This document shows positions 1 through 12,567 of a DNA stretch of 64,000 bases, piece by piece (position 1 is the first letter of the stretch; every line of letters begins with the position of its first letter). Made by a program: the position numbers and the translations under genes. The DNA comes from Rhodoferax aquaticus. GTDB lineage: Bacteria; Pseudomonadota; Gammaproteobacteria; Burkholderiales; Burkholderiaceae_C. The notes beneath the pieces are model-generated. The model had not been told where the DNA came from. It ran no database searches and saw only the letters and a list, made by a program, of their open reading frames with translations. Where the stretch lies: NCBI RefSeq assembly GCF_006974105.1, contig NZ_CP036282.1, positions 1,612,001 to 1,676,000 on the forward strand, written 5' to 3'.

Positions 1-3000
1 TTCCCGGTGTGTGGCCCATGGCTGCAAAGCGGGATAGCCGACGACTTTCTGCTTCGTAGCCGTTTACGGGGAATGTTTCGTAGTTCAATCCACCGGGGTG
101 AGCCACAAAGTACTGGCATCCACCTAGCGATCGCTTCATCCAAGTGTCCACAATGTCAAAGGTGAGCGGCGTGTGCACTCCGATGGTTGGATGCAGACTA
201 CTAGGAGGGTTCCATGCCTTGTAGCGAACTGCTGCAACAAATTCACCTACAGTTCCTGTACTTTGCATGGGCAAGGCCTTGCCATTACAAGTTACCACAT
301 AGCGGCTCTCGTTAAGGCCGGTTACTCGAACCTCCATGCGCTCTAGGCTTGAGTCCACATAGCGGGCGGTGCCGCCTGCGCTGCTTTCTTCGCCCATCAC
401 ATGCCAAGGCTCCAGTGCGCAGCGCAGCGTCATTTCTACGCCCATGCTCTTGACCGAACCCACCATCGGGAAGCGGAACTCGTAGTGCGGGGCGAACCAG
501 CTGGTGTCGAACGCGTAGCCCGCAGCTTGCATGTCGGCGATCACATCATCAAAGTCCATTTTGATGAAGGTGGGCAGCATGTAGCGGTCGTGCAGCTCGG
601 TGCCCCAGCGAGTGACCGGAGCCTTGTAAGGCGCTTTCCAGAATCGGGCGACCAAAGCGCGCAGCAGAAGCTGCTGCACGCTGCTCATGTGGGGGTGCGG
701 CGGCATCTCGAAGGCGCGCAACTCTAGCAAGCCCAAACGGCCCGTGGACGAGTCTGGCGAGTACATCTTGTCGATGGAAAACTCGCTGCGATGGGTGTTG
801 CCCGTCACGTCGATCAGTATGTTGCGCAGCGTGCGGTCCACCAACCACGGCGGCATGCTCTGGCCGTAGAGTTCGCGATTTTTGTAGATCTGCTCAATCG
901 CGATTTCCAGTTCGTAGAGCTGGTCGTTGCGGGCTTCGTCCACGCGCGGTGCCTGACTGGTCGGGCCTACAAACATACCGCTGAACAAGTAACTCAAAGA
1001 CGGGTGGTTGTGCCAGTACAGCAGCAGGCTGGCCAGTAGCTCAGGTTTTCGCAGGAAGGGGCTGTCTGCCGGCGTGGCACCTCCCATCACAAAGTGGTTA
1101 CCGCCACCGGTGCCGGTGTGGCGGCCATCGGTCATGAACTTCTCGGCGCTCAGGCGCGACTCGAAGGCCGCGTTGTACAAAAACTCGGTGTTGTAGACCA
1201 GTTCTTTCCAGTTGGTGACGGGGTGCACGTTGACCTCGATCACGCCGGGGTCCGGGGTGACTTGCAGCAGCTTTAAGCGTGGGTCGCGGGGAGGTGGGTA
1301 GCCTTCTAGCACGAGCTGCATCTTGAGCTCAGTGGCGGTTGCTTCGATGGCGGCCAACAGGTCGAGGTAGTCCTCTAGTCGCTCAAGAGGCGGCATAAAC
1401 ACGTACAAGACCCCTGACTTGGAGCCTTGGGCTTCAGCTTTAGGGCCACTGGCGCGGCGTGGATCGCGTACCTCTACGCACAGTGCGGTGCGGGTGATCC
1501 AGTGGGCGGATTCAAATCGAGTGGGCGATTTGGCGAACAGGGCCGGCTCAGGCTGCGTGGCGTGCTGTGCATGGGTGGATATGCTGGTGTCTCCGCTGCC
1601 AGGCGTGGCTTGCATCTTACGACCGGCTTCTGGCACGGCCAGATTGCCAGCCAGATAGGGCAAGCCACTAGAGCCCACCGATCCACTGGCTATGGAGGCG
1701 CTGCCAGTGCTGCCCGATGCATAGCGTGCAGCAAATGTGGAGTGGAGGGGGAGTTGGCCACGGTCCACCGTGGGATCTCTCTCTACTAGGTAAGGGAAGT
1801 CACCTTGGCTCACCCACGGCAGAGAGTCTAGGGGTAAGCGCAGACCCATCGGAGAGTCACCAGGCATGAGGTACATGCGCTCATCACGGAAAAACCATGG
1901 GCCAGTCGTCCACCTGGGTCCCGCAAGCTTTGGGTTATTGGTTTGGGTTTTTGCGCCGCGGTCATCGGCCACTTTAAGAGGCAGCACATAGCCCACAACC
2001 GAATCCAGCTTTTGTTCAAAGACTCGCCGCAGACGCGCACGTTCCATCTCATCATCAAGCTTGCTGTTGAACGGATCTACATTGACCGGCAAGCGGCGCT
2101 CGCGCCACAGGTAGTACCAAGTGTCTTCATAACCAGCCTGCAGATACTTGTCGGTGAGTCCCAGATTGCAGGCTAAGCGAGATACAAAGCGCTGGGCATC
2201 TGTGGCTGTGTAGTGCGTCGGTTTGCGCTCATCGGTGAATAACTCTGGGTTGTTCCAGACTTTTTGCTTGTCGGCGCGCCAGTAAATATTAAGTGCCCAA
2301 CGCGGCAATTGTTCGCCGGGATACCACTTGCCTTGGCCGAAATGCAGAAATCCACCTTGGCCGTATTCGTCACGCAGTTTGTGCACCAGTTCGGTTGCAA
2401 AGCCGCGTTTCGTGGGGCCCAAGGCGTCAGTGTTCCACTCAGGCGCATCGCGGTCGTTAACCGCCACAAACGTGGGTTCTCCTCCCATTGTTAGGCGCAC
2501 ATCACCCGCTAGGAGCTCGGAGTCCACGTGGTCGCCCAAGTGCATGACCGCAGCCCACTGCTCAGGGGTGTAAGGCTTGGTGACACGAGGAGACTCGTAT
2601 AAACGCGTGACCTGCATGTGGTGTTGGAACTTCACTTCGCTCTCATCCACGCCACCTTCAATTGGCGCTGCTCCCGAGGGCTGCGGCGTGCAGGCCAATG
2701 GGATATGCCCCTCACCTGCCAAGAGACCGCTCGTAGCATCAAGGCCAATCCAGCCTGCGCCGGGCAAGTAAACCTCGCACCAAGCATGCAGGTCTGTGAA
2801 GTCCACTTCCGTGCCGCTAGGACCGTCGAGAGACTTCACATCGGGGGCGAGCTGAATCAAATAGCCCGATACAAAGCGCGCAGCAAGTCCGCAGTGCCTC
2901 AGCAATTGGACCAGCAGCCATGCAGAGTCACGGCATGAACCCGACCCTAGCGTCAGCGTCTCTTCCGGAGTTTGGACGCCCGGCTCCATGCGAATGGTGT

Positions 3001-3472
3001 AGTCCACAGACTGGTGAACCATGGTGTTGAGGTCCACCAAAAAGATCACGCTACGGCGTTTCGTTCGGTCAATCTTGTCCAAATACGCCTGCAGCAGGGG
3101 CGTCATAGGGTCCGCTGCCAAGTACGGCAGAAGCTCTTGTTTGAGCTCAGCCGCGTAGGTAAATGGGAACTCTTCGGCCTCGGGTTCAAGGAAGAAGTCG
3201 AACGGGTTGTACACGGCCATTTCGACGACTAAGTCGACGGTGACCTTGAACTCCTTTGTTTTTTCCGGAAAGACTAGCCGTGCTTGGTAGTTGGCAAATG
3301 GATCTTGTTGCCAATTCACAAAGTGGGTAGCTGGCTCGACTTTGAGGGAGTACGAGATGATTTTGCTGCGGCAATGGGGCGCTGGGCGCAGACGGATCAC
3401 TTGGGGACCGAGATTGACTAAACGGTCGTAGGAGTAATGGGTGACGTGGTTCAGTGCTGCGTGGATGGACAT
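1..3472 (-). CDS. Transglutaminase-like / DUF2126 (putative amidoligase) protein, 3' end missing
   Basis: A single minus-strand frame opens with ATG at 3472 (MSIHAALNHVTHYSYDR) and is still open at base 1, giving 1157 residues. The last residues read (YEAESRRLSRFAAMGHTPG) match what I know as the end of DUF2126 proteins, so only a short tail should be missing. Residues 1-90 look like the bacterial transglutaminase N-terminal region. A transglutaminase core follows with a complete triad: Cys180 in GSCRDSAW, His229 in DLHAWCEV and Asp245 in GLDATSG. The remainder is the long DUF2126 region, predicted in the literature on amidoligases to be a glutamine-synthetase/GCS-type ligase. The gene is divergent from the ATP-grasp/alpha-E pair, its usual companions. 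Proposed role: making or cleaving amide bonds in a peptide or peptide-tagged product; the substrate is unknown. Family call is firm, function is not. Confidence 0.9.
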   Translation of the reverse strand, partial: MSIHAALNHVTHYSYDRLVNLGPQVIRLRPAPHCRSKIISYSLKVEPATHFVNWQQDPFANYQARLVFPEKTKEFKVTVDLVVEMAVYNPFDFFLEPEAEEFPFTYAAELKQELLPYLAADPMTPLLQAYLDKIDRTKRRSVIFLVDLNTMVHQSVDYTIRMEPGVQTPEETLTLGSGSCRDSAWLLVQLLRHCGLAARFVSGYLIQLAPDVKSLDGPSGTEVDFTDLHAWCEVYLPGAGWIGLDATSGLLAGEGHIPLACTPQPSGAAPIEGGVDESEVKFQHHMQVTRLYESPRVTKPYTPEQWAAVMHLGDHVDSELLAGDVRLTMGGEPTFVAVNDRDAPEWNTDALGPTKRGFATELVHKLRDEYGQGGFLHFGQGKWYPGEQLPRWALNIYWRADKQKVWNNPELFTDERKPTHYTATDAQRFVSRLACNLGLTDKYLQAGYEDTWYYLWRERRLPVNVDPFNSKLDDEMERARLRRVFEQKLDSVVGYVLPLKVADDRGAKTQTNNPKLAGPRWTTGPWFFRDERMYLMPGDSPMGLRLPLDSLPWVSQGDFPYLVERDPTVDRGQLPLHSTFAARYASGSTGSASIASGSVGSSGLPYLAGNLAVPEAGRKMQATPGSGDTSISTHAQHATQPEPALFAKSPTRFESAHWITRTALCVEVRDPRRASGPKAEAQGSKSGVLYVFMPPLERLEDYLDLLAAIEATATELKMQLVLEGYPPPRDPRLKLLQVTPDPGVIEVNVHPVTNWKELVYNTEFLYNAAFESRLSAEKFMTDGRHTGTGGGNHFVMGGATPADSPFLRKPELLASLLLYWHNHPSLSYLFSGMFVGPTSQAPRVDEARNDQLYELEIAIEQIYKNRELYGQSMPPWLVDRTLRNILIDVTGNTHRSEFSIDKMYSPDSSTGRLGLLELRAFEMPPHPHMSSVQQLLLRALVARFWKAPYKAPVTRWGTELHDRYMLPTFIKMDFDDVIADMQAAGYAFDTSWFAPHYEFRFPMVGSVKSMGVEMTLRCALEPWHVMGEESSAGGTARYVDSSLERMEVRVTGLNESRYVVTCNGKALPMQSTGTVGEFVAAVRYKAWNPPSSLHPTIGVHTPLTFDIVDTWMKRSLGGCQYFVAHPGGLNYETFPVNGYEAESRRLSRFAAMGHTPG

Positions 3473-3786
3473 GGGGCCGGTCTCGTTAAATCTCACACTG
3501 GAAAGGCGTTACCACAATTGCAGTAACGGCTACATAGTAGCAACAGGGCTTGTGCATGGCTCAAAGCAAGTCCTGCGCCAAACAGGGCTGGGTCTGCTGC
3601 AAGTCAGTATGCATCGTATTGGTGACAATGCGCGGTCATGGTGCCAAGGGTATACGCGGATGTAGCCCCAAAATGTGGCGTATCCCTAGGTAAAACGCTT
3701 AGGTGGCTTCACATTACCAAGCGCCATCGTGGTGCATGATATCGGTGGCCCAAAGCTTGCATAGAACGTGTTGAAAGAGGTCTTTT
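3473..3786. promoter_or_regulatory. Divergent intergenic region of the ATP-grasp/transglutaminase locus
   Basis: These 314 bases separate the starts of the two divergent genes and hold no credible gene. They must contain both promoters, but I could not pick convincing -35/-10 pairs. The only clear signal is the ribosome site GAAAGAGG about 6 bases before the ATG at 3787. Confidence 0.5.
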
Positions 3787-5301
3787 ATGCGGAAATTCGA
3801 TGAGATGTACACCCAGCTTCCCTACGAGTTTTTTACTCATGGCAAGCAAATACGCGAGCACTACAAGATCTATGACGAATGGCTAGCGCGCCAACCCGGC
3901 GACATGATGGCCAAACGTCGAGAAGAAGCGGAAATGATCTTCCGACGTGTGGGCATAACTTTTGCCGTATACGGCGAGAAGGACGAAGACGGAGCAGGCA
4001 CTGAGCGCCTAATTCCGTTTGACCTGATCCCTCGCATCATTCCTGCCCATGAGTGGGGCAGCATGGAGCAAGGTTTGGTGCAGCGCGTCACTGCACTGAA
4101 TCGGTTCATTTACGACATTTACCACGACCAAGAGATTCTCAAAGCGGGCATCGTGCCGCGCGAGCAGATTGAAAACAACGCGCAGTTTCGCCCCGAGATG
4201 ATGGGCGTAGAGGTGCCCAACCGGATCTACTCGCAAATTTCGGGGATCGACATCGTGCGTGCGCCAGATGCCAATGGCAAAGGCGAGTACTACGTGCTAG
4301 AAGACAATTTGCGGGTGCCCAGTGGCGTGAGCTACATGCTGGAAGACCGCAAGATGATGATGCGTTTGTTCCCTGATTTGTTCAGCGCGCACCGTGTGGC
4401 CCCCATCGCCCACTACCCAGATTTGTTGTTAGAAACCCTGCGCGCTAGCAGTCCGGCCACGACCGCTGAGCCCACCGTCGTTGTATTGACGCCAGGCATG
4501 TACAACAGCGCCTATTTTGAGCACGCGTTCTTGGCGCAGCAAATGGGCGTTGAGCTGGTGGAGGGGCAAGACCTGATTGTGAAAGACAACTTTGTCTACA
4601 TGCGCACGACCCGTGGTCCGCGCCGTGTAGACGTGATCTACCGCCGCGTAGATGACGACTTTTTGGACCCCACTGTCTTTAGGCCAACATCCACGCTGGG
4701 CTGCGCGGGGCTGATAAGTGCGTACCGCGCCGGAAACGTCACCATTTGCAATGCAGTCGGTACCGGTATTGCAGATGACAAGTCTATCTATCCCTACGTG
4801 CCGAAAATGATCGAGTTTTACTTGGGTGAAAAGCCCATTTTGAACAATGTGCCGACTTACATGTGCCGCAACAAGGACGACTTGGCGTACACCTTGGCCA
4901 ACTTGAAAGACTTGGTCGTCAAAGAGGTGCATGGAGCAGGCGGCTACGGCATGTTGGTGGGTCCAGCGTCGACCCAGGCAGAGATTGAAGACTTCCGCAA
5001 GGCCTTGTTGGCTAACCCCAGTGGCTATATAGCGCAACCCACGCTCAGTCTGTCCAGTTGTCCCACCTTTGTGGAGAGCGGCATAGCGCCGCGCCACATT
5101 GACCTGCGGCCTTATGTGCTGTCTGGCAAGACAGTGCAAATGGTGCCTGGCGGCCTCACACGCGTTGCGCTGAAGGACGGCTCCTTGGTGGTCAACAGCA
5201 GCCAAGGCGGTGGCACCAAGGACACTTGGATCCTAGAAGAAGATGAGGTCGCGCCCGGCAGTGCCGCAACCTCCACCCAATCCCAAACGCAGTCAGCTTG
5301 A
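3787..5301 (+). CDS. Circularly permuted type 2 ATP-grasp protein
   Basis: A 504-residue cytoplasmic protein of the circularly permuted ATP-grasp family (DUF404/DUF407). These enzymes are predicted to form an amide bond using ATP through an acyl-phosphate. Visible motifs are YVLEDNLRVPSGVSY from residue 169, with Glu172, Asp173 and Asn174 as likely Mg-ATP ligands, and the glycine-rich loop KEVHGAGGYGMLVG from residue 379. The C-terminal 25 residues are a low-complexity Ser/Thr/Gln tail. The start is supported by GAAAGAGG upstream. The alpha-E gene follows after 15 bases, so the two are surely co-transcribed. In contrast to the fused paralogue at 8741-11458, all expected active-site residues are present, so this is the copy most likely to be catalytically active. 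No substrate can be inferred from sequence alone. Confidence 0.92.
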   Translation: MRKFDEMYTQLPYEFFTHGKQIREHYKIYDEWLARQPGDMMAKRREEAEMIFRRVGITFAVYGEKDEDGAGTERLIPFDLIPRIIPAHEWGSMEQGLVQRVTALNRFIYDIYHDQEILKAGIVPREQIENNAQFRPEMMGVEVPNRIYSQISGIDIVRAPDANGKGEYYVLEDNLRVPSGVSYMLEDRKMMMRLFPDLFSAHRVAPIAHYPDLLLETLRASSPATTAEPTVVVLTPGMYNSAYFEHAFLAQQMGVELVEGQDLIVKDNFVYMRTTRGPRRVDVIYRRVDDDFLDPTVFRPTSTLGCAGLISAYRAGNVTICNAVGTGIADDKSIYPYVPKMIEFYLGEKPILNNVPTYMCRNKDDLAYTLANLKDLVVKEVHGAGGYGMLVGPASTQAEIEDFRKALLANPSGYIAQPTLSLSSCPTFVESGIAPRHIDLRPYVLSGKTVQMVPGGLTRVALKDGSLVVNSSQGGGTKDTWILEEDEVAPGSAATSTQSQTQSA

Positions 5302-5316
5302 GAGAGGCTCCCAAAT

Positions 5317-6273
5317 ATGTTGTCAAGAACCGCTGACCATCTGTTCTGGATGTCCCGCTACACAGAGCGCGCGGAAAACACCGCGCGTATGTTGGATGTC
5401 AACTACCAAACTTCGCTGTTGCCGCAATCAGAAGCGGTTGCGCAACTGGGCTGGCAAGGCCTGCTGTCTATCAGTGAGTTGCTCTATAGCTACAAAGAGC
5501 GGCACGGCGAGATCCAAGCCCGTGAAGTCATGGACTTCATGGTCAAAGATGAGAGCAATCCATCGAGCATCATGTCTTGCCTGAGTGCGGCCCGTGAGAA
5601 TGCGCGTGCCGTGCGCGGCGCACTGACCACCGAAGTGTGGGAGACGCAAAACACCACGTGGCTCGAAGTCAAGCGCATGATCAAGTCGGGTCAGTTTGAG
5701 CAAGACCCCGCCCAATTCTTTGAATGGGTGAAGTTCCGCTCCCACCTGTCGCGTGGAGTGACGGTGGGCACCATGCTGATCGACGAAGCTTTGCACTTCA
5801 TGCGCATGGGAACCTTTTTAGAGCGTGCGGACAACACAGCGCGTTTGGTGGATGTGAAGTTTCATGCGGTACAAAGCGACTTCTTTGGCGCGGCGAGCGA
5901 GAAAGACCAAGAGTACGACTTCTACCACTGGAGCGCCATTTTGCGCAGCGTGTCGGGTTTTGAGGTGTACCGCAAGGTCTATCGCGACGTCATCAAACCG
6001 GAGCGCGTGGCTGAATTGTTGATTCTGCGTCCGGACATGCCTCGCTCCTTGCATGCTTGCATGAATGAAGTGCTGGCCAATTTGGAGCTGCTGGGGACCG
6101 ACCCGCGCAGCGAAACCCTGCGCCGTGCTGGCAAGCTGCGCGCTGAGTTGGAGTATGGCCGCATTGACGAAATTTTGGCGACAGGTCTGCATGCCTACCT
6201 GTCTCAGTTTTTGGATCGCGTCAATGACATCGGTGCCCACATCGGCCGTGAGTTTTTGGTGCCGTTGAACTGA
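5317..6273 (+). CDS. Alpha-E domain-containing protein (DUF403)
   Basis: A 318-residue, mostly helical protein of the alpha-E family, which nearly always travels with circularly permuted ATP-grasp and transglutaminase genes. It carries two copies of one motif, ERAENTARMLDV from residue 17 and ERADNTARLVDV from residue 169, which suggests an internal duplication of a helical unit. There is no signal peptide or membrane segment. The ribosome site GAGAGG lies upstream of the ATG, 15 bases after the ATP-grasp stop. The biochemical role of the family is unknown; a partner or scaffold for the ATP-grasp ligase is the simplest inference, supported by the natural fusion of the same two domains at 8741-11458. 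Confidence 0.9.
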   Translation: MLSRTADHLFWMSRYTERAENTARMLDVNYQTSLLPQSEAVAQLGWQGLLSISELLYSYKERHGEIQAREVMDFMVKDESNPSSIMSCLSAARENARAVRGALTTEVWETQNTTWLEVKRMIKSGQFEQDPAQFFEWVKFRSHLSRGVTVGTMLIDEALHFMRMGTFLERADNTARLVDVKFHAVQSDFFGAASEKDQEYDFYHWSAILRSVSGFEVYRKVYRDVIKPERVAELLILRPDMPRSLHACMNEVLANLELLGTDPRSETLRRAGKLRAELEYGRIDEILATGLHAYLSQFLDRVNDIGAHIGREFLVPLN

Positions 6274-6422
6274 TTATTGTTTGCCACGAGCTGCCCCACC
6301 GTGGCGGTGGGCTTGCACGTGTTGGGGAGGGTGGGCGCAGCTTGTCTGCTTGCGCCAAGATATTGACCGGTTGGCGCGTGTCTGCACAGAGCGGTAGCCC
6401 AGCCTGCTGCTAAGCTTTGGCC

Positions 6423-7655
6423 ATGTCGCATGCCCATGAGTCAACCGCAACATCCTTGTTGCACAACAGACCCTTTATCCGTTTTTGGTGCGCCCGGCTC
6501 TTAGGCGTTACAGCGACCCAAATGCTGATGGTTGCCATTGCGTGGCACATGTACGACCTGACGTCCAGCGCATGGGACTTGGGCTTGGTGGGCTTGTTTC
6601 AGTTTGTGCCAGCCCTGTTGTTTACGCTGCCCGCCGGGCATACGGCTGACCGCTACCACCGGGGGCGCATTTTTGCAGCCTGCATGCTGCTGCAGGCCTG
6701 CGTGGGCCTTGTCTTGGTGCTGGCCACCGAACAAAGTTTTGCCACGCGTGGCTTGATTCTCGTGGTCTCTGTCATGCTGGGAATGGCCCGCGCCTTCCAA
6801 ATGCCGGCGCAGCAGGCGCTCACCCCGTTGTTGGTGCCCGTGGCTCAGCTTCAAACCGCCGTGGCATGGAGCTCAAGTGGCATGCAGGTCGCGATCATTT
6901 GCGGCCCCGCATTGGGCGGCGTTCTGTACATCTGGGGCCCCTCTACGGTGTACGCCACCTGTGCTGTCCTGCTGGTGTGTGCGGTGGGGCTGGCTCTTTC
7001 GGTGCGCTACCCCCATCGTCCTGTTTATTTGGCTGCAACTTGGAGCAGTGTGTCGGCCGGGTTTCGCTTTGTATGGCAGCACAAAGTGCTCTTGGGTGCC
7101 ACCTCGCTGGATTTGTTTGCGGTGTTGCTAGGTGGCGCGACTGCATTGCTGCCGATTTACTGTCGCGACATCTTGCACGTGGGCCCTGTGGGTTTGGGCT
7201 TGCTGCGCGGGGCACCGGCGGTTGGCGCGCTAGTCATGTCTTTGGCGCTGATTCGCTGGCCCTTGCGGCGCAGAGTGGGGCACAAGTTACTCACCGCTGT
7301 GGGCGTGTTTGGCTTAGCCACGGTGGTTTTTGGCCTTTCGCAGAGTTTTGCGCTCTCTTTGTTGGCCTTGGTCGTCACCGGGGCTGCCGACAGTGTGAGT
7401 GTGGTCACTCGCTCTACCCTCATGCAGCTGGAAACGCCTGACGACATGCGGGGTCGGGTCTCAGCGGTTAACTCCATTTTTATTGGGGCCTCTAATCAAC
7501 TGGGAGAGTTTGAGTCTGGTGCCACGGCTGCACTGATGGGGGCTGTGGGCTCTACCGTCTTAGGTGGTGTAGGGACCGTGCTGGTTGCTGCCAGTTGGGT
7601 CAAGCTGTTTCCCGCACTTGCACACCGCGACACGATGGAACCTAGTGCGCGGTAG
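6423..7655 (+). CDS. MFS transporter (EntS-like)
   Basis: A 410-residue inner-membrane transporter of the major facilitator superfamily, with about 12 hydrophobic segments. The loop between segments 2 and 3 carries the MFS motif as GHTADRYHRGR, and the middle of the protein has the DDMRGRVSAVNS stretch typical of the EntS/MFS_3 branch of exporters. A TTG six bases upstream is in frame, but ATG at 6423 (MSHAHESTATSLL) is the more natural start. It follows the alpha-E gene by about 150 bases on the same strand and converges with the transglutaminase gene. Its place inside the ATP-grasp locus suggests, but does not show, that it exports the product of that pathway. It could instead be an unrelated drug or siderophore exporter. 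Confidence 0.85.
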   Translation: MSHAHESTATSLLHNRPFIRFWCARLLGVTATQMLMVAIAWHMYDLTSSAWDLGLVGLFQFVPALLFTLPAGHTADRYHRGRIFAACMLLQACVGLVLVLATEQSFATRGLILVVSVMLGMARAFQMPAQQALTPLLVPVAQLQTAVAWSSSGMQVAIICGPALGGVLYIWGPSTVYATCAVLLVCAVGLALSVRYPHRPVYLAATWSSVSAGFRFVWQHKVLLGATSLDLFAVLLGGATALLPIYCRDILHVGPVGLGLLRGAPAVGALVMSLALIRWPLRRRVGHKLLTAVGVFGLATVVFGLSQSFALSLLALVVTGAADSVSVVTRSTLMQLETPDDMRGRVSAVNSIFIGASNQLGEFESGATAALMGAVGSTVLGGVGTVLVAASWVKLFPALAHRDTMEPSAR

Positions 7656-7757
7656 CGTTAAGGCTTACACAGCGTTAGAGTCCGGTTGCGACTCATCAGT
7701 CCAATGTGTCTCCTGCGCCCTCGGAGATTGCGTGGGATGCTATGAAAAATATAGTGC

Positions 7758-8741
7758 CTATTCCCGGCTTTGGCTTTGGCTCTGACTTGTCTTCTGTAGT
7801 GGCTGCATAGGAGCGAATGGCGTCAAGGCTGGGAGTTGGGCAGGCGTTGGCGTGAATTCTTCGACCGTAACGCCAACTTCAAGGGTGTGGCTTGCACCGC
7901 CGTGGATGACGCCGCGCAGCGGTGATACGTCACCGAAGTCGCGTCCGACCGCGAGGGTGACATAGTCCACGCCAGGTGCGTACCAGCCCCAGCGGTTGTT
8001 GGTAGGGTCTAGGTCTACCCAGCGCGCACCCTCGGGCAGGTCGGCTACGTACACACTCACCCATGCATGCGATGCGTCACTGCCGACGAGCTTTACTGTG
8101 CCGGGCGCGGGCCGGGTCAGCAGGTAACCACTGACGTAGCGCGCTGGCAGCCCCATGGTGCGCAAGCAGGCCAGCATGATGTGGGCGAAGTCTTGGCACA
8201 CTCCCTTGCGTTGTTCCAGTGCTTGCAGGGCCGGGGTGTTGATTTGGGTGCTGAGGCTCTCGTAAGTGAAGTCCTTGTAAATGCGTTCCATCACACTCAC
8301 CGCCACCTCTAGGACGCTGGCACCCGGCGTGAAGCTGGGGCGTGCGTAGGCGGCAAACTCTTGGAGACGGGGCACAAAAGGGGATGCAAAAACAAATTCA
8401 GATGCCGGTTCATACGGCGCATGGGCCTGGAAGCGCATGCTGTCGCGCTGTTGTTCCCAAGGTACTTGGCTATTTGGAATGTCGCTGGGGTAGGTGGTCA
8501 CAAGGCTCTTAGCCTGCACTTCCAGCACACTGTGGGGTTCTTGCAGTGAGAAAAAGCAGCGTGTGTTGCGGTACACGTCAGAAGTGCAACGCATTTGCGC
8601 CGGGAAGGGCATCACCTCCATGCTGTGGCTCAGCAAGGCTTGGCCAGCATGGTCTATAGGCCGCACATAGGCCATGTGCTGGGCGGTTTCTACGGCCGGT
8701 TGGTAGTTGTAGCGCGTGGTATGTGTGACTTGCAGTTGCAT
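7758..8741 (-). CDS. Transglutaminase family protein (bacterial transglutaminase-like N-terminal + core)
   Basis: A 327-residue cytoplasmic transglutaminase-like cysteine peptidase homologue. An N-terminal beta region (MQLQVTHTTRYNYQPAV) precedes the core, which has a full triad: Cys182 in KGVCQDFAH, His225 in DASHAWVSV and Asp245 in WVDLDPTN. The last 35 residues are Pro/Gln/Ser-rich and probably disordered. Its ATG shares one base with the TGA of the upstream fused ATP-grasp/alpha-E gene (TGATG at 8743-8739), so translation is coupled and the proteins are probably made in fixed ratio. Known family members are grouped with ATP-grasp and alpha-E proteins and are thought to hydrolyse or transfer an amide bond; the substrate is unknown. 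Confidence 0.92.
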   Translation of the reverse strand: MQLQVTHTTRYNYQPAVETAQHMAYVRPIDHAGQALLSHSMEVMPFPAQMRCTSDVYRNTRCFFSLQEPHSVLEVQAKSLVTTYPSDIPNSQVPWEQQRDSMRFQAHAPYEPASEFVFASPFVPRLQEFAAYARPSFTPGASVLEVAVSVMERIYKDFTYESLSTQINTPALQALEQRKGVCQDFAHIMLACLRTMGLPARYVSGYLLTRPAPGTVKLVGSDASHAWVSVYVADLPEGARWVDLDPTNNRWGWYAPGVDYVTLAVGRDFGDVSPLRGVIHGGASHTLEVGVTVEEFTPTPAQLPALTPFAPMQPLQKTSQSQSQSRE

Positions 8742-11458
8742 CAGGTGCCCACGCTTTGTTTGTTTTTACCTGAGTGCGTGAAGTACGTGGTGCTAATGTC
8801 TTCCGACACCTTATAGGCGCTGGCCCTTAAGGTCTCTAACACGGACCGCAGCGCAGGAGCAGAGGCCGCACCCTCAGGGCTCTCGCACAGTTGGGCTAAA
8901 TCCCAGGTATCCGGGTTAGGAACCCGCAAAGACATGCTGGAGAGTTCGCCAGCCGGGCTTAACGCCAGCTTGGAGAGCCTGCCGCGCAAGGTGTGCGCAA
9001 CCCATGCCAGCGAGCGTGGATTGTCACGGTCAAGCACTAGCAGGTCGGCCAAAGCGGCAATGTCACGGCTTTGTTGGTACTGCGCGTGAAAGGTAATGGT
9101 GCTGTCGAATAGGCTCAAGAGAGCTTCGAATCCACCGTCCGTATGCACTGCACCCGTGTCAAAGCTGCACTCTAGGGCATGCGCCAGGAAGTTCAGTCGC
9201 TCCAAATGCCTGCCAATGCTCAAGAGTCGCCAACCGTCGTCTCGGTTCATTCGGTCGGTTTGAGCCCCGGTAATGGCGGCCAGTTGATCACTCAAGTCTT
9301 TAAGCACTCGCAAGGCCTGCGCAGTGGAGTAATCACTACGTGCACTCAAAAGCTTGCAATGCGCAAACAACTCTTCCTCGGCACGCACGATGGTGCTCCA
9401 GTGCTCTTGAGACAAACGCTCTCTCACCGTTGCCGCTGCCATTTTGAGCGCCCGTACGTTGTAGCCCACACTGGTGGCACCTTCTTGTGAGGCCAAGCTC
9501 GCAATCAAAGTACGCTCAAATACCCGCCTAGCTTGTGTTGCAGAGGGGGTGCCTGGCAGTACCAAGGCATTGGCAACTGCAAGCTGCGACAACCATTGGA
9601 GCAGGGGGCTGGAGCTTTGGTCTTCGCCGCCAAGGCATTCCAAGCTAAGCCTTGCGAGTCGGGCTGTGTTCTCGGAGCGCTCGGTGTATCGCCCTAACCA
9701 GTAGAGGTTTTCTGCCGCGCGACTGGTGACCAAGCGCTTGCGCTGCGCTAGTACAGCGGGGGTGAGGGCACTGGGCAAGAGTGTCGTGGTGTCTACCGCT
9801 CCGTCAGTCAGTGCCCATACATCCGCACTGCTGCCGCCGCGCTGCATGGAAGCTACATCTGCGCTGCTGCCTGCAACGCGGGCCAAGCCCCCAGGCAAAA
9901 CGCGCCAACGCGGATGGCCCGCAGGGTCTTTTCCGTCGGAGACGGCGAACACCCGCAACAGTGCGGAGCGCGCCACCATGGTGCCTGCCCCGTCTTTGCC
10001 GCCGGATTGCCACGTTGGCATCTGGGACAAAGGCATGTAGGCTTGAACCGTATGGTCCTCGTTTTGTCGCACGATGCGGCCTGCCCATTCATCTAAAGCT
10101 GCTTGCTTTAAAGTGGGCCCCAAAACCGACTCAAAGCTGGTGTGGATACTAGAGCCTGGGTAAGTGGGTTTGATGGTGTGCTCTGGCAAACGCTCCAAAG
10201 CCTCTTCCATGGCGCTGCGCTCGCCGCACCACCACGTCGGGAGCGCAGGGAGCACGAGGTCTTCCCCCAAGGCGTGCTGCGCCAATGCAGGTAAAAAGCC
10301 CAAGAGGGCGGGGGACTCCAGAAACGCCGAGCCAGGCGCATTGGCCACCAAGACGTTACCCGCCCGAACCGCCTGCAGCAAGCCCGGAACCCCAAGGGTC
10401 GAGTCGGGTCTGAGCTCTAGGGGATCAAGATACTGGTCGTCCACCCGTTTGAGTAAGCCATGCACAGGCACCAAGCCGCGCAAGGTTTTGAGAAACAGTC
10501 GCTCGTCGCGCACGATGAGGTCGCTGCCCTCTACCAAACTCAAGCCAAGGTAACGCGCCAAGTAAGCATGTTCAAAATAGGTTTCGTTGTAGGGGCCGGG
10601 AGTTAGCAATGCGATGTGCGCGTCCGCACCAGCGGGGCTGCTAGCTTTCAAACTATCCATCAATGCGCGGTACGTGCTGGCCAAGCGCTGCACCCGTAGC
10701 GACTCAAACGCTTGTGGAAACTGGCGCGATACCGCCAGTCGGTTTTCCAGGAGGTAGCCCAAACCGCTGGGCGCTTGACAGCGCTGCCCCAGGACCCACC
10801 AATTGCCATCAGGGCCACGCGCTAGGTCAAATGCCGCCACATGCAAATGCACCCCGCCTACAGGCTTGATGCCAGCCATGGAGCGTAAGTACCCTGGGTG
10901 CCCATGCACCAAAGCGGGAGGCAGTAGCCCTTGTTGCAAAAAGGTTTGTGGGCCATACACATCAGCCATTACGGCCTCTAGTAGCCGCATACGCTGCTGC
11001 ACGCCTTCTTCAATGCGCTGCCAAGCGGGGGCTTCCAGAATCAGCGGAAACAGACCCAGTGACCATGGCCGTTGGGGCCCTTCGGCGTCGGCGTAAACGT
11101 TGTAGGTCACACCGTTGTCGCGTATCTGACGTTGCAAACTGGCGGCACGGCGATCCAGCTCGGTGCTGCTGCGAGTCTCCAAGTTTTCAATAAACTGGGT
11201 CCAAGTCTGGGTCAGGCTTGTACGCTCTACTTCGGAACTGGTCGCTAGATGGGAGCCTTGGTCAGTGCCTAGCGGTCCGTGTGCGACCACACTGCCGCGC
11301 AACTCATCAAAATGGCCCGCTGCTGCTGTGCAGGCACGCGCGCTGGAGACTACATCGGCGTCTGAAAGCGCGGTGGTGTTAGGGCGTTGGTCTGAGAAAG
11401 GAGTCACGAGCACACAGTATGACAGTGCAATGCGCTTGGTACGGGTACGGGAACCCAC
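8741..11458 (-). CDS. Fused circularly permuted ATP-grasp / alpha-E protein
   Basis: A 905-residue fusion of the two domain types that are separate genes at 3787-6273. The ATP-grasp part spans roughly residues 60-550 and the alpha-E part roughly 575-890 (YTERSENTARL near 593). The catalytic motif that reads LEDNLRVPSG in the free-standing copy is LGQRCQAPSGLGY here (about residue 222), and the glycine loop is replaced by KPTYPGSSIHTSF (about 428). Glu-Asp-Asn and the Gly-rich loop are therefore not conserved between the paralogues. The stop codon overlaps the transglutaminase start. The listed start is GTG at 11458; an in-frame GTG at 11407 (MTPFSDQ) would also leave all domains intact, and the first 60 residues look non-conserved. 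Presumed cytoplasmic. Confidence 0.88.
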   Translation of the reverse strand: MGSRTRTKRIALSYCVLVTPFSDQRPNTTALSDADVVSSARACTAAAGHFDELRGSVVAHGPLGTDQGSHLATSSEVERTSLTQTWTQFIENLETRSSTELDRRAASLQRQIRDNGVTYNVYADAEGPQRPWSLGLFPLILEAPAWQRIEEGVQQRMRLLEAVMADVYGPQTFLQQGLLPPALVHGHPGYLRSMAGIKPVGGVHLHVAAFDLARGPDGNWWVLGQRCQAPSGLGYLLENRLAVSRQFPQAFESLRVQRLASTYRALMDSLKASSPAGADAHIALLTPGPYNETYFEHAYLARYLGLSLVEGSDLIVRDERLFLKTLRGLVPVHGLLKRVDDQYLDPLELRPDSTLGVPGLLQAVRAGNVLVANAPGSAFLESPALLGFLPALAQHALGEDLVLPALPTWWCGERSAMEEALERLPEHTIKPTYPGSSIHTSFESVLGPTLKQAALDEWAGRIVRQNEDHTVQAYMPLSQMPTWQSGGKDGAGTMVARSALLRVFAVSDGKDPAGHPRWRVLPGGLARVAGSSADVASMQRGGSSADVWALTDGAVDTTTLLPSALTPAVLAQRKRLVTSRAAENLYWLGRYTERSENTARLARLSLECLGGEDQSSSPLLQWLSQLAVANALVLPGTPSATQARRVFERTLIASLASQEGATSVGYNVRALKMAAATVRERLSQEHWSTIVRAEEELFAHCKLLSARSDYSTAQALRVLKDLSDQLAAITGAQTDRMNRDDGWRLLSIGRHLERLNFLAHALECSFDTGAVHTDGGFEALLSLFDSTITFHAQYQQSRDIAALADLLVLDRDNPRSLAWVAHTLRGRLSKLALSPAGELSSMSLRVPNPDTWDLAQLCESPEGAASAPALRSVLETLRASAYKVSEDISTTYFTHSGKNKQSVGT

Positions 11459-11585: not shown

Positions 11586-12293
11586 TTAGCCAAGGGGCAA
11601 AGCATCAAGTGTGGAGTAGCAGTTTTTGAGCCAGGTTTTGACACGTTGACGCTCCAGCATGCCTAAGGTGTCCTCGCCGCCCTTATGGGTGATGGCGGCC
11701 CAAAAGCTCGCATTTTGGCGGTCTATTTTGCGCATACTGGCCTCGTGCAGTTGCGCCAGTTCAATGACGTGCCCTCCTAGGGCAAGGGCTTTTTTGAGTG
11801 CGGCCGACGCGTCCAACTGCGAGAAATCACTGCCACGGCCCATGTTTTTCACCACAATGTAGTTGGGTCCGGCGCCGTAAGTGCCCACTAAACGGTCGAG
11901 TAAATCCACGGAGTCTTTGCCTGCATCGGCAACATGCCACAGGTTAACTGTGACACCCATGCTGGCCATGAGGGATACCAAATCTGAGTCTTTGACCCAG
12001 CGGGCCAATGGAGCTGCCGTTTGGGCTGCAAGGTCCACAATCACATTAGGCAACTTGCCGGTGGCTGGCTCTTCTTCAAAAACTGCTGCGATCAAGTCTA
12101 GGCCTTCGTAGCTGTCTACAACGACTGGAGCCGCAAAGTCCGCGTAAAAGCGGGCAAAGGAGGTGTGAGAGCGATCGGTATCAAAGCCTGTGAAGCCGCG
12201 GCCTTTGTCAATAAAGTACTGCGCGAGTACCCGTGCGACAACCGATTTACCGACTCCCCCTTTTTCACCGCCTATGAAGTTGATGGAAGGCAT
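11586..12293 (-). CDS. ParA/MinD-like P-loop ATPase (orphan)
   Basis: A 235-residue SIMIBI-class ATPase. The N-terminus MPSINFIGGEKGGVGKSVV holds the deviant Walker A motif with the signature lysine (KGGVGKS), FDTDRSH follows as the A' region and VIVDLAAQT as Walker B. ATG at 12293 is chosen because AAGGA lies just upstream and the P-loop then sits at the usual place; an in-frame extension to 12413 has no conserved character. No parB, parS-like repeat or minCDE partner is visible nearby, so it is not an ordinary chromosome partition gene. ParA-like proteins position cell structures or plasmids on a surface, but the cargo here is unknown. The gene is divergent from the acidic protein gene at 12568. 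Confidence 0.8.
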   Translation of the reverse strand: MPSINFIGGEKGGVGKSVVARVLAQYFIDKGRGFTGFDTDRSHTSFARFYADFAAPVVVDSYEGLDLIAAVFEEEPATGKLPNVIVDLAAQTAAPLARWVKDSDLVSLMASMGVTVNLWHVADAGKDSVDLLDRLVGTYGAGPNYIVVKNMGRGSDFSQLDASAALKKALALGGHVIELAQLHEASMRKIDRQNASFWAAITHKGGEDTLGMLERQRVKTWLKNCYSTLDALPLG

Positions 12294-12567
12294 AAATATT
12301 TCCTTAAATGTGGGGAATAAGCAAGTTGCGTGCACGTGAGTGTAGTGCGCGAAGTTTGCAGCCTCGCCTTTGGAAGTGCCACACGGTGGGACTACGTGGC
12401 ACAATCTAATCAAACATTTCTAATGTCCCACTGCCGGGCTTGCTTTGAAAAATGACCGTTCAGCTCAACAGTACTTTTTCTAAGACGCACTTTGATATAG
12501 GGCATCCATAGAGGCTGTTCTTCTCTAAAACCGTCCGTTCATTGGCCATCTCCACTCCACCTTTGCT

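Follow-up and report, generated by a model that had tools for sequence, protein, structure and literature searches.

The window, a stretch of 64,000 nucleotides from the Rhodoferax aquaticus genome (a single contig of 4.74 Mb), begins with a locus that encodes ATP-grasp, alpha-E, and transglutaminase proteins. All domains named for five genes of this locus were found by Pfam with E-values from 3e-17 to 0, which excludes chance domain matches. The genes, domains, and layout described in the earlier note are thus real, with an MFS transporter gene to be added to them. The DUF2126-transglutaminase gene (Bact_transglu_N, Transglut_core, and DUF2126 domains, the last with a Pfam score of 1299 bits) occupies positions 1 to 3496 on the minus strand. 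The full-length protein has 1192 aa, the gene ends 80 bases to the left of the window (L003:9921), and its probable start is at 3472, as judged from homologues that begin with MSIH. On the plus strand are a separate circularly permuted ATP-grasp gene (3787 to 5301; CP_ATPgrasp_2, 548 bits) and, directly 3' of it after a gap of 15 bases, a separate alpha-E gene (5317 to 6273; Alpha-E, 337 bits). The far half of the locus, on the minus strand, consists of a second, small transglutaminase gene (7758 to 8741), hereafter B-type, whose product was matched by Pfam and has a Cys-His-Asp triad, and a gene for a fused circularly permuted ATP-grasp/alpha-E protein (8741 to 11458; CP_ATPgrasp_2, 462 bits; Alpha-E, 201 bits). 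These two genes overlap by one base. The fused gene has a probable start at 11407, and its product is 83% identical to Rhodoferax proteins, the closest among the named matches.

The MFS gene (6417 to 7655, plus strand; Pfam MFS_3/MFS_1) separates the near half of the locus from the far one, and its product is MFS_3/EntS-like, with scores under the NCBIfam cut-offs. No MFS homologue is shown in the mapped loci of relatives, and the transporter is probably outside the ATP-grasp/alpha-E/transglutaminase system. PADLOC models for anti-phage defence matched none of the five locus proteins at an E-value of 0.01.

The separate ATP-grasp protein is a relative of PDB entry 3n6x (E-value 3e-211), and by alignment it has an intact signature consisting of E172, N174, R176, K379, and the GGYG loop. 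E-x-N-x-R is the metal/phosphate motif of ATP-grasp enzymes, for example E288/N290/R292 of biotin carboxylase, and by this motif we take E172, N174, and R176 to be catalytic. Among 134 separate ATP-grasp proteins, counted after one further sequence was removed as partial, the E, N, R, and K residues were present in all 134 and GGYG in 132. Actinomycetota, Bacteroidota, and Deinococcota each contribute a single member to this set. The separate ATP-grasp is therefore predicted, on sequence grounds, to be an active ligase. The related protein of Y. bercovieri is reported to hydrolyse ATP in the available excerpts of PMC6376114. A divergent separate ATP-grasp in genome G127 (L099:1724-3172) keeps E-x-N-x-R and has an altered GGYG loop (a GSGPRNML stretch); the same genome also carries a normal separate copy.

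The fused protein has lost this signature. An initial alignment of 31 separate and 12 fused proteins showed that the invariant E172-D-N174-x-R176 motif and the K379/GGYG region were replaced in the fused form. Extended to 68 fused proteins, including that of the window, the comparison found E172 in 0/68, N174 in 0/68, R176 in 2/68, GGYG in 0/68, and K379 in 34/68. In the window, G-Q-R-C-Q takes the place of the E-x-N-x-R motif and K379 is kept. The fused and separate classes in this set of 68 and 134 sequences were assigned by profile score before the alpha-E domain was checked, and that domain was found in 68/68 fused and 0/135 separate sequences. All fused proteins come from Pseudomonadota, and a FastTree tree, read unrooted, split all separate sequences from all fused sequences. 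The fused protein thus appears to be a pseudo-ligase, which probably only assists the active ligase.

The residues found in place of the signature are conserved. R stands at position 174 in 56/68 fused proteins and Q at position 176 in 60/68, and E at 241 (12/12) and E at 330 (11/12) are conserved specifically in the fused form. The alpha-E part of the fused proteins keeps both E-R motifs in at least 40/44. It mostly lacks R93, N95, R97, N112, R176, and W205, which are present in at least 53/58 separate alpha-E proteins and, where listed, in at most 9/44 fused ones. Since the replacement residues are conserved, the fused protein is not simply decaying and would have another job, and another chemistry is possible for it. 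It could accordingly be imagined as a second, non-canonical enzyme that uses another nucleotide, needs no metal, or carries out hydrolysis instead of ligation, so that the locus would hold two enzymatic sets with different chemistry. The conserved R and Q replacements, the fused-specific glutamates, and the retained E-R motifs all favor such an enzyme. However, the absence of E172, N174, and GGYG from every fused protein and of K379 from half of them makes known ATP-grasp chemistry unlikely, and some fused proteins have also lost part of the loop region. We regard a second enzyme as unlikely and favor the pseudo-ligase. A very divergent fused protein (280 bits) is encoded directly after ATP-grasp/alpha-E in genome G182 (L094:3853-6276), which has an estimated completeness of 100% and no DUF2126 gene; this protein might represent an intermediate form or else a third subtype.

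Structure models and homologue alignments were obtained for the other proteins of the locus. The separate alpha-E protein models as all-helical (pLDDT 89.8), and its N-terminal and C-terminal halves match each other with an hhalign probability of 99.1; it is a tandem duplication. The DUF2126 part models as a glutamine-synthetase fold, in a moderate-confidence model (pLDDT 68). Its identity to glutamine synthetase and the YbdK carboxylate-amine ligases is only about 10%, and the DUF2126 protein differs from both by large insertions, an Ig-like C-terminal domain, and the fused transglutaminase. In that transglutaminase, the C, H, and D of the triad are each present in 79/79 homologues. The B-type triad is nearly as constant (C in 44/44, H in 44/44, and D in 42/44 homologues), and in A-type transglutaminases, for which C and H were counted, they occur in 41/43 and 42/43, respectively.

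The genome encodes two Bact_transglu_N proteins, both from the locus, and three Transglut_core proteins outside it, one of them at 2.23 Mb. Two of these three remote proteins were compared and neither was a clear A-type transglutaminase, the better match scoring 37 bits. The separate ATP-grasp/alpha-E pair is thus without a recognisable A-type transglutaminase of its own. For this reason, and because E and N are missing from 68/68 fused ATP-grasp proteins, the locus does not contain the two complete sets that the earlier note had described.

Distribution of the genes was analyzed in 60 genomes of the order and 160 genomes of the phylum, with fused genes called by reading-frame length. The order sample contained the separate ATP-grasp in 30 genomes, DUF2126 in 22, and the fused gene in 12, and the three were strictly nested: every genome with the fused gene had DUF2126, and every genome with DUF2126 had the separate ATP-grasp. 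Of the 30 genomes with the separate core, 18 had no fused gene, and 8 of these had no DUF2126 either. In the phylum sample, 88 genomes had the separate ATP-grasp, 50 had DUF2126, and 47 had the fused gene, to which two contig-edge fragments taken as fused were added. DUF2126 never occurred without the separate ATP-grasp (0/50), and the fused gene did so in 1/49 genomes (G205, which is 74% complete). DUF2126 was absent from 4/49 genomes with the fused gene (G082, G170, G182, and G205), and the fused gene was absent from 5/50 genomes with DUF2126, one of these five cases being a fragment. In the phylum sample the same genus can be represented by more than one genome, and Fisher values for these co-occurrences therefore exaggerate significance.

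The dependence is one-way: the core (hereafter module A, the separate ATP-grasp and alpha-E) can live alone, and the add-on module with the fused gene (module B) almost never does. By the criterion of the earlier note, that the two sets should not occur independently, obligate co-occurrence in both directions is refuted by the 18/30 order genomes with the core and no fused gene, and a one-sided dependence is not. With the fused gene accompanied by the separate ATP-grasp in 12/12 order and 48/49 phylum genomes, and DUF2126 found beside either module, the suggestion of one amide-forming pathway is very likely correct.

Gene order was then compared among relatives. Outside the window, 63 mapped loci had both DUF2126 and the fused gene. 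In 54 of them, DUF2126 immediately preceded the fused gene on the same strand; in 6, the two genes lay on opposite strands, and the remaining 3 had a different order. Ten of the 11 other order genomes with the fused gene had DUF2126, fused gene, and transglutaminase in this order on one strand. The eleventh, G028, had adjacent fused and transglutaminase genes, with DUF2126 nearby on the opposite strand. Where the fused gene was lacking, DUF2126 followed ATP-grasp/alpha-E in 8/10 order genomes, with an Anbu gene between them in six of the 8; in the other two genomes (G047 and G051), DUF2126 and the separate pair were on different contigs. Assignment of DUF2126 to the separate pair, as in the earlier note, therefore matches the usual arrangement in genomes without the fused gene and not that in genomes with it. 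Clustered now with one module and now with the other, DUF2126 is better seen as a hub common to the two modules than as a mark of one set. The gene order of the window, with DUF2126 divergent from ATP-grasp/alpha-E and the transglutaminase and fused genes facing them, recurs in an uncultured Burkholderiales assembly (L130).

These data also bear on whether the two modules could be independent pathways, each under nitrogen control, that are merely co-located. The order genomes with module A and no fused gene would fit such independence, as would the 19/46 phylum genomes with both A- and B-core ATP-grasp genes in which these are not within 12 kb of each other. In the other 27 they are, which speaks for a single system. 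Against it stand the near-absence of the fused gene without module A, the single exception being an incomplete assembly, the clustering of DUF2126 with either module, and the single cluster with all genes in one direction in G005, G012, and a B. cenocepacia record. Two unconnected pathways are, on balance, quite improbable. The further proposal that the sets are equivalent, one complete set ligating a tag and the other removing it, would suit the ligase-like and hydrolase-like folds in both halves and the processing role implied by the one-way dependence of B on A, but it is very improbable, because set B has no intact ATP-grasp and instead carries the DUF2126 ligase in most loci, no A-type transglutaminase could be recognised for set A here, and the dependence runs one way. 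We therefore retain a single system composed of two modules.

The intergenic region shared by the two divergent transcripts contains sequences that resemble nitrogen-control sites. A sigma54-like -24/-12 site with 10/11 consensus bases precedes the separate ATP-grasp gene (3746 to 3761, plus strand), and another, also with 10/11, precedes the DUF2126-transglutaminase gene (3565 to 3580, minus strand). An NtrC-like dyad (12/14) lies at 3720 to 3736. A near-identical sigma54-like site is found before DUF2126 in a genome of the same family (G049, L052). Across the whole window, 8 sigma54-like sites were found and 6.35 were expected, which is not above chance, so the case for sigma54 rests on position and on relatives.

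Promoter scans covered 58 separate ATP-grasp, 43 fused, and 49 DUF2126 genes in the loci of relatives up to L115, leaving out genes with fewer than 150 or fewer than 200 bases upstream. Sites of at least 10/11 within 350 bases of the start were found before 25/58 separate ATP-grasp genes (0.26 expected), 0/43 fused genes (0.16 expected), and 5/49 DUF2126 genes (0.14 expected), and upstream dyads of at least 11/14 were found for 17/58 (2.28 expected), 1/43 (1.67 expected), and 6/49 (1.99 expected), respectively, all expectations being derived from shuffles that preserve base composition only. In the window, only about 10 bases separate the dyad from the -24 element of the putative ATP-grasp promoter, too short a distance for a classical enhancer of that promoter; the distance to the DUF2126 site is about 140 bases. 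The genome contains rpoN and a full ntrC.

Putative nitrogen-linked promoter features are shared by the locus and PP_2685-2688 of P. putida, in which PP_2687 and PP_2688 are presumably the alpha-E and ATP-grasp genes. Both are called hypothetical in PMC7801951. According to excerpts of that paper, PP_2686-2688 are induced 11 to 15-fold under nitrogen limitation in the wild type and 14 to 20-fold in an rpoN mutant, in which induction thus persists, and they are termed likely NtrB/NtrC targets (PMC7801951). As they stand, these data would speak against sigma54 in P. putida; the urt genes in the same table behave like PP_2686-2688 (PMC7801951), and given this the rpoN mutant or the condition may be odd. 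Expression of the Anbu gene PP_2685 barely changes in the wild type (1.12; PMC7801951 Table 2), so that Anbu may be controlled separately from the ligase genes there.

In B. cenocepacia H111, I35_5080-5083 (DUF404/407, DUF403, transglutaminase, and large transglutaminase) belong to the same gene families as the locus. They are described in the available part of PMC5491218 as controlled by both NtrC and sigma54 when nitrogen is limiting, with expression 6 to 9.4-fold down in an ntrC mutant. In a record of another B. cenocepacia strain (L111), the genes for ATP-grasp, alpha-E, transglutaminase, DUF2126, the fused protein, and transglutaminase all point the same way. Unlike the B. cenocepacia genes, those of the locus in the window are split over both strands, with DUF2126 divergent from ATP-grasp and an MFS gene inserted. 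Marine metagenomes are reported to link these domains with urea metabolism (excerpts of PMC3597751). The system is probably used when nitrogen is scarce.

The locus belongs to a known, unsolved kind of system. The components listed in the abstract of Iyer et al. (2009) reportedly include alpha-E and an NTN-hydrolase, together with an ATP-grasp and a GS-like ligase that are both permuted. In the available excerpts of PMC5666114, PMC6376114, and PMC3597751, Iyer 2009 is credited with predicting an ATP-grasp/alpha-E/transglutaminase/Anbu system for peptide synthesis or tagging, so that calling the pathway undescribed went too far; those same excerpts name no product for the Anbu-type system. Discussion of the Anbu-type operon goes back to 2008-2009, and a 2017 paper still had no confirmation of the hypotheses about it; in that work, a pull-down with Y. 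bercovieri Anbu recovered none of the operon partners specifically (excerpts of PMC6376114). A literature search found neither the signature loss of the fused form nor the one-way nesting stated, and Iyer 2009 may contain the former.

The locus shares with the Iyer 2009/Anbu-operon system the separate ATP-grasp, alpha-E, transglutaminase, and DUF2126 families, and also the succession of an intact-signature permuted ATP-grasp gene and, directly after it, an alpha-E gene. Unlike in the Anbu operon, the transglutaminase genes are on the strand opposite to the separate ATP-grasp and alpha-E genes, with none in their operon, and the locus is interspersed with genes of a second module, one of which encodes a fused pseudo-ATP-grasp. 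The Anbu-like gene of the genome also differs in lying outside the locus, at 2.84 Mb and thus 1.2 Mb away. It directly follows mutS (L051:3885-7472), as does an Anbu-like gene in L130 (L130:1185-4689), and in both cases the NCBIfam MutS score is over the cut-off. L130, the uncultured Burkholderiales assembly mentioned above, thus has both the gene order of the window and an Anbu-like gene after mutS.

Taken together, the best explanation, to which we assign a probability of about 0.47, is a single amide-forming and amide-remodelling system linked to nitrogen limitation, with two modules and a fused pseudo-ligase partner. Under nitrogen limitation, NtrC and sigma54 would switch on both divergent transcripts in Rhodoferax aquaticus. 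Module A, the separate ATP-grasp and alpha-E with the Anbu-like peptidase encoded elsewhere in the genome, would make the amide: the ATP-grasp would convert a carboxylate of the putative substrate to an acyl phosphate, which would then be joined to an amine, while the duplicated helical alpha-E would hold the substrate. Module B would act on the product of module A. In it, the DUF2126 protein, as a transglutaminase-fold cysteine enzyme joined to a GS-fold ligase, may cleave or transfer and re-ligate amides, and the small transglutaminase would be a second cysteine activity that cleaves, transfers, or extends the amide. The fused pseudo-ligase would bind this same substrate or partner but carry out no ATP chemistry, serving as a scaffold or regulator that presents the substrate or restrains the active ligase. 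Anbu would possibly hydrolyse the amide product. What the analysis shows directly is the domain content, the loss of the signature residues, the nested occurrence, the promoter enrichment in relatives, and the GS-like fold of a moderate-confidence model; the substrate, the product, the roles of the pseudo-ligase and Anbu, and the regulation in Rhodoferax aquaticus are inferred.

A bolder version is rather doubtful. The ligase and pseudo-ligase would be a nitrogen-controlled pair in which the pseudo-ligase carries or meters the amide for the transglutaminase-GS enzyme, and the product would be a nitrogen-stress conjugate or a protein mark that can be reversed, Anbu being the eraser.

The preferred single system replaces the idea of two sets by a division of labour that can be tested, between an active ligase core and an add-on module that occurs almost only in genomes with that core, and it points to nitrogen limitation as the growth condition in which the product should be sought. 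Separate ATP-grasp proteins of this kind are widespread (30/60 order and 88/160 phylum genomes). If the reading is true, a pseudo-ligase maintained by selection throughout a phylum would give the ATP-grasp fold an unusual function, as a carrier or a regulator.

Several neighboring genes were recorded on both sides of the locus. A ParA/TraL-like ATPase gene at 11586 to 12413 adjoins it, beside a gene for a DUF6806 protein; the ATPase scores 22.9 bits with CbiA, under the cut-off, and 45 bits with the TraL model, far under the cut-off. Just left of the locus (L003:2142-6715 and 7481-9921), clpP, clpX, and lon were recognized by eye, and an antirepressor-like ORF and a small lipoprotein-like ORF lie between these genes and DUF2126.
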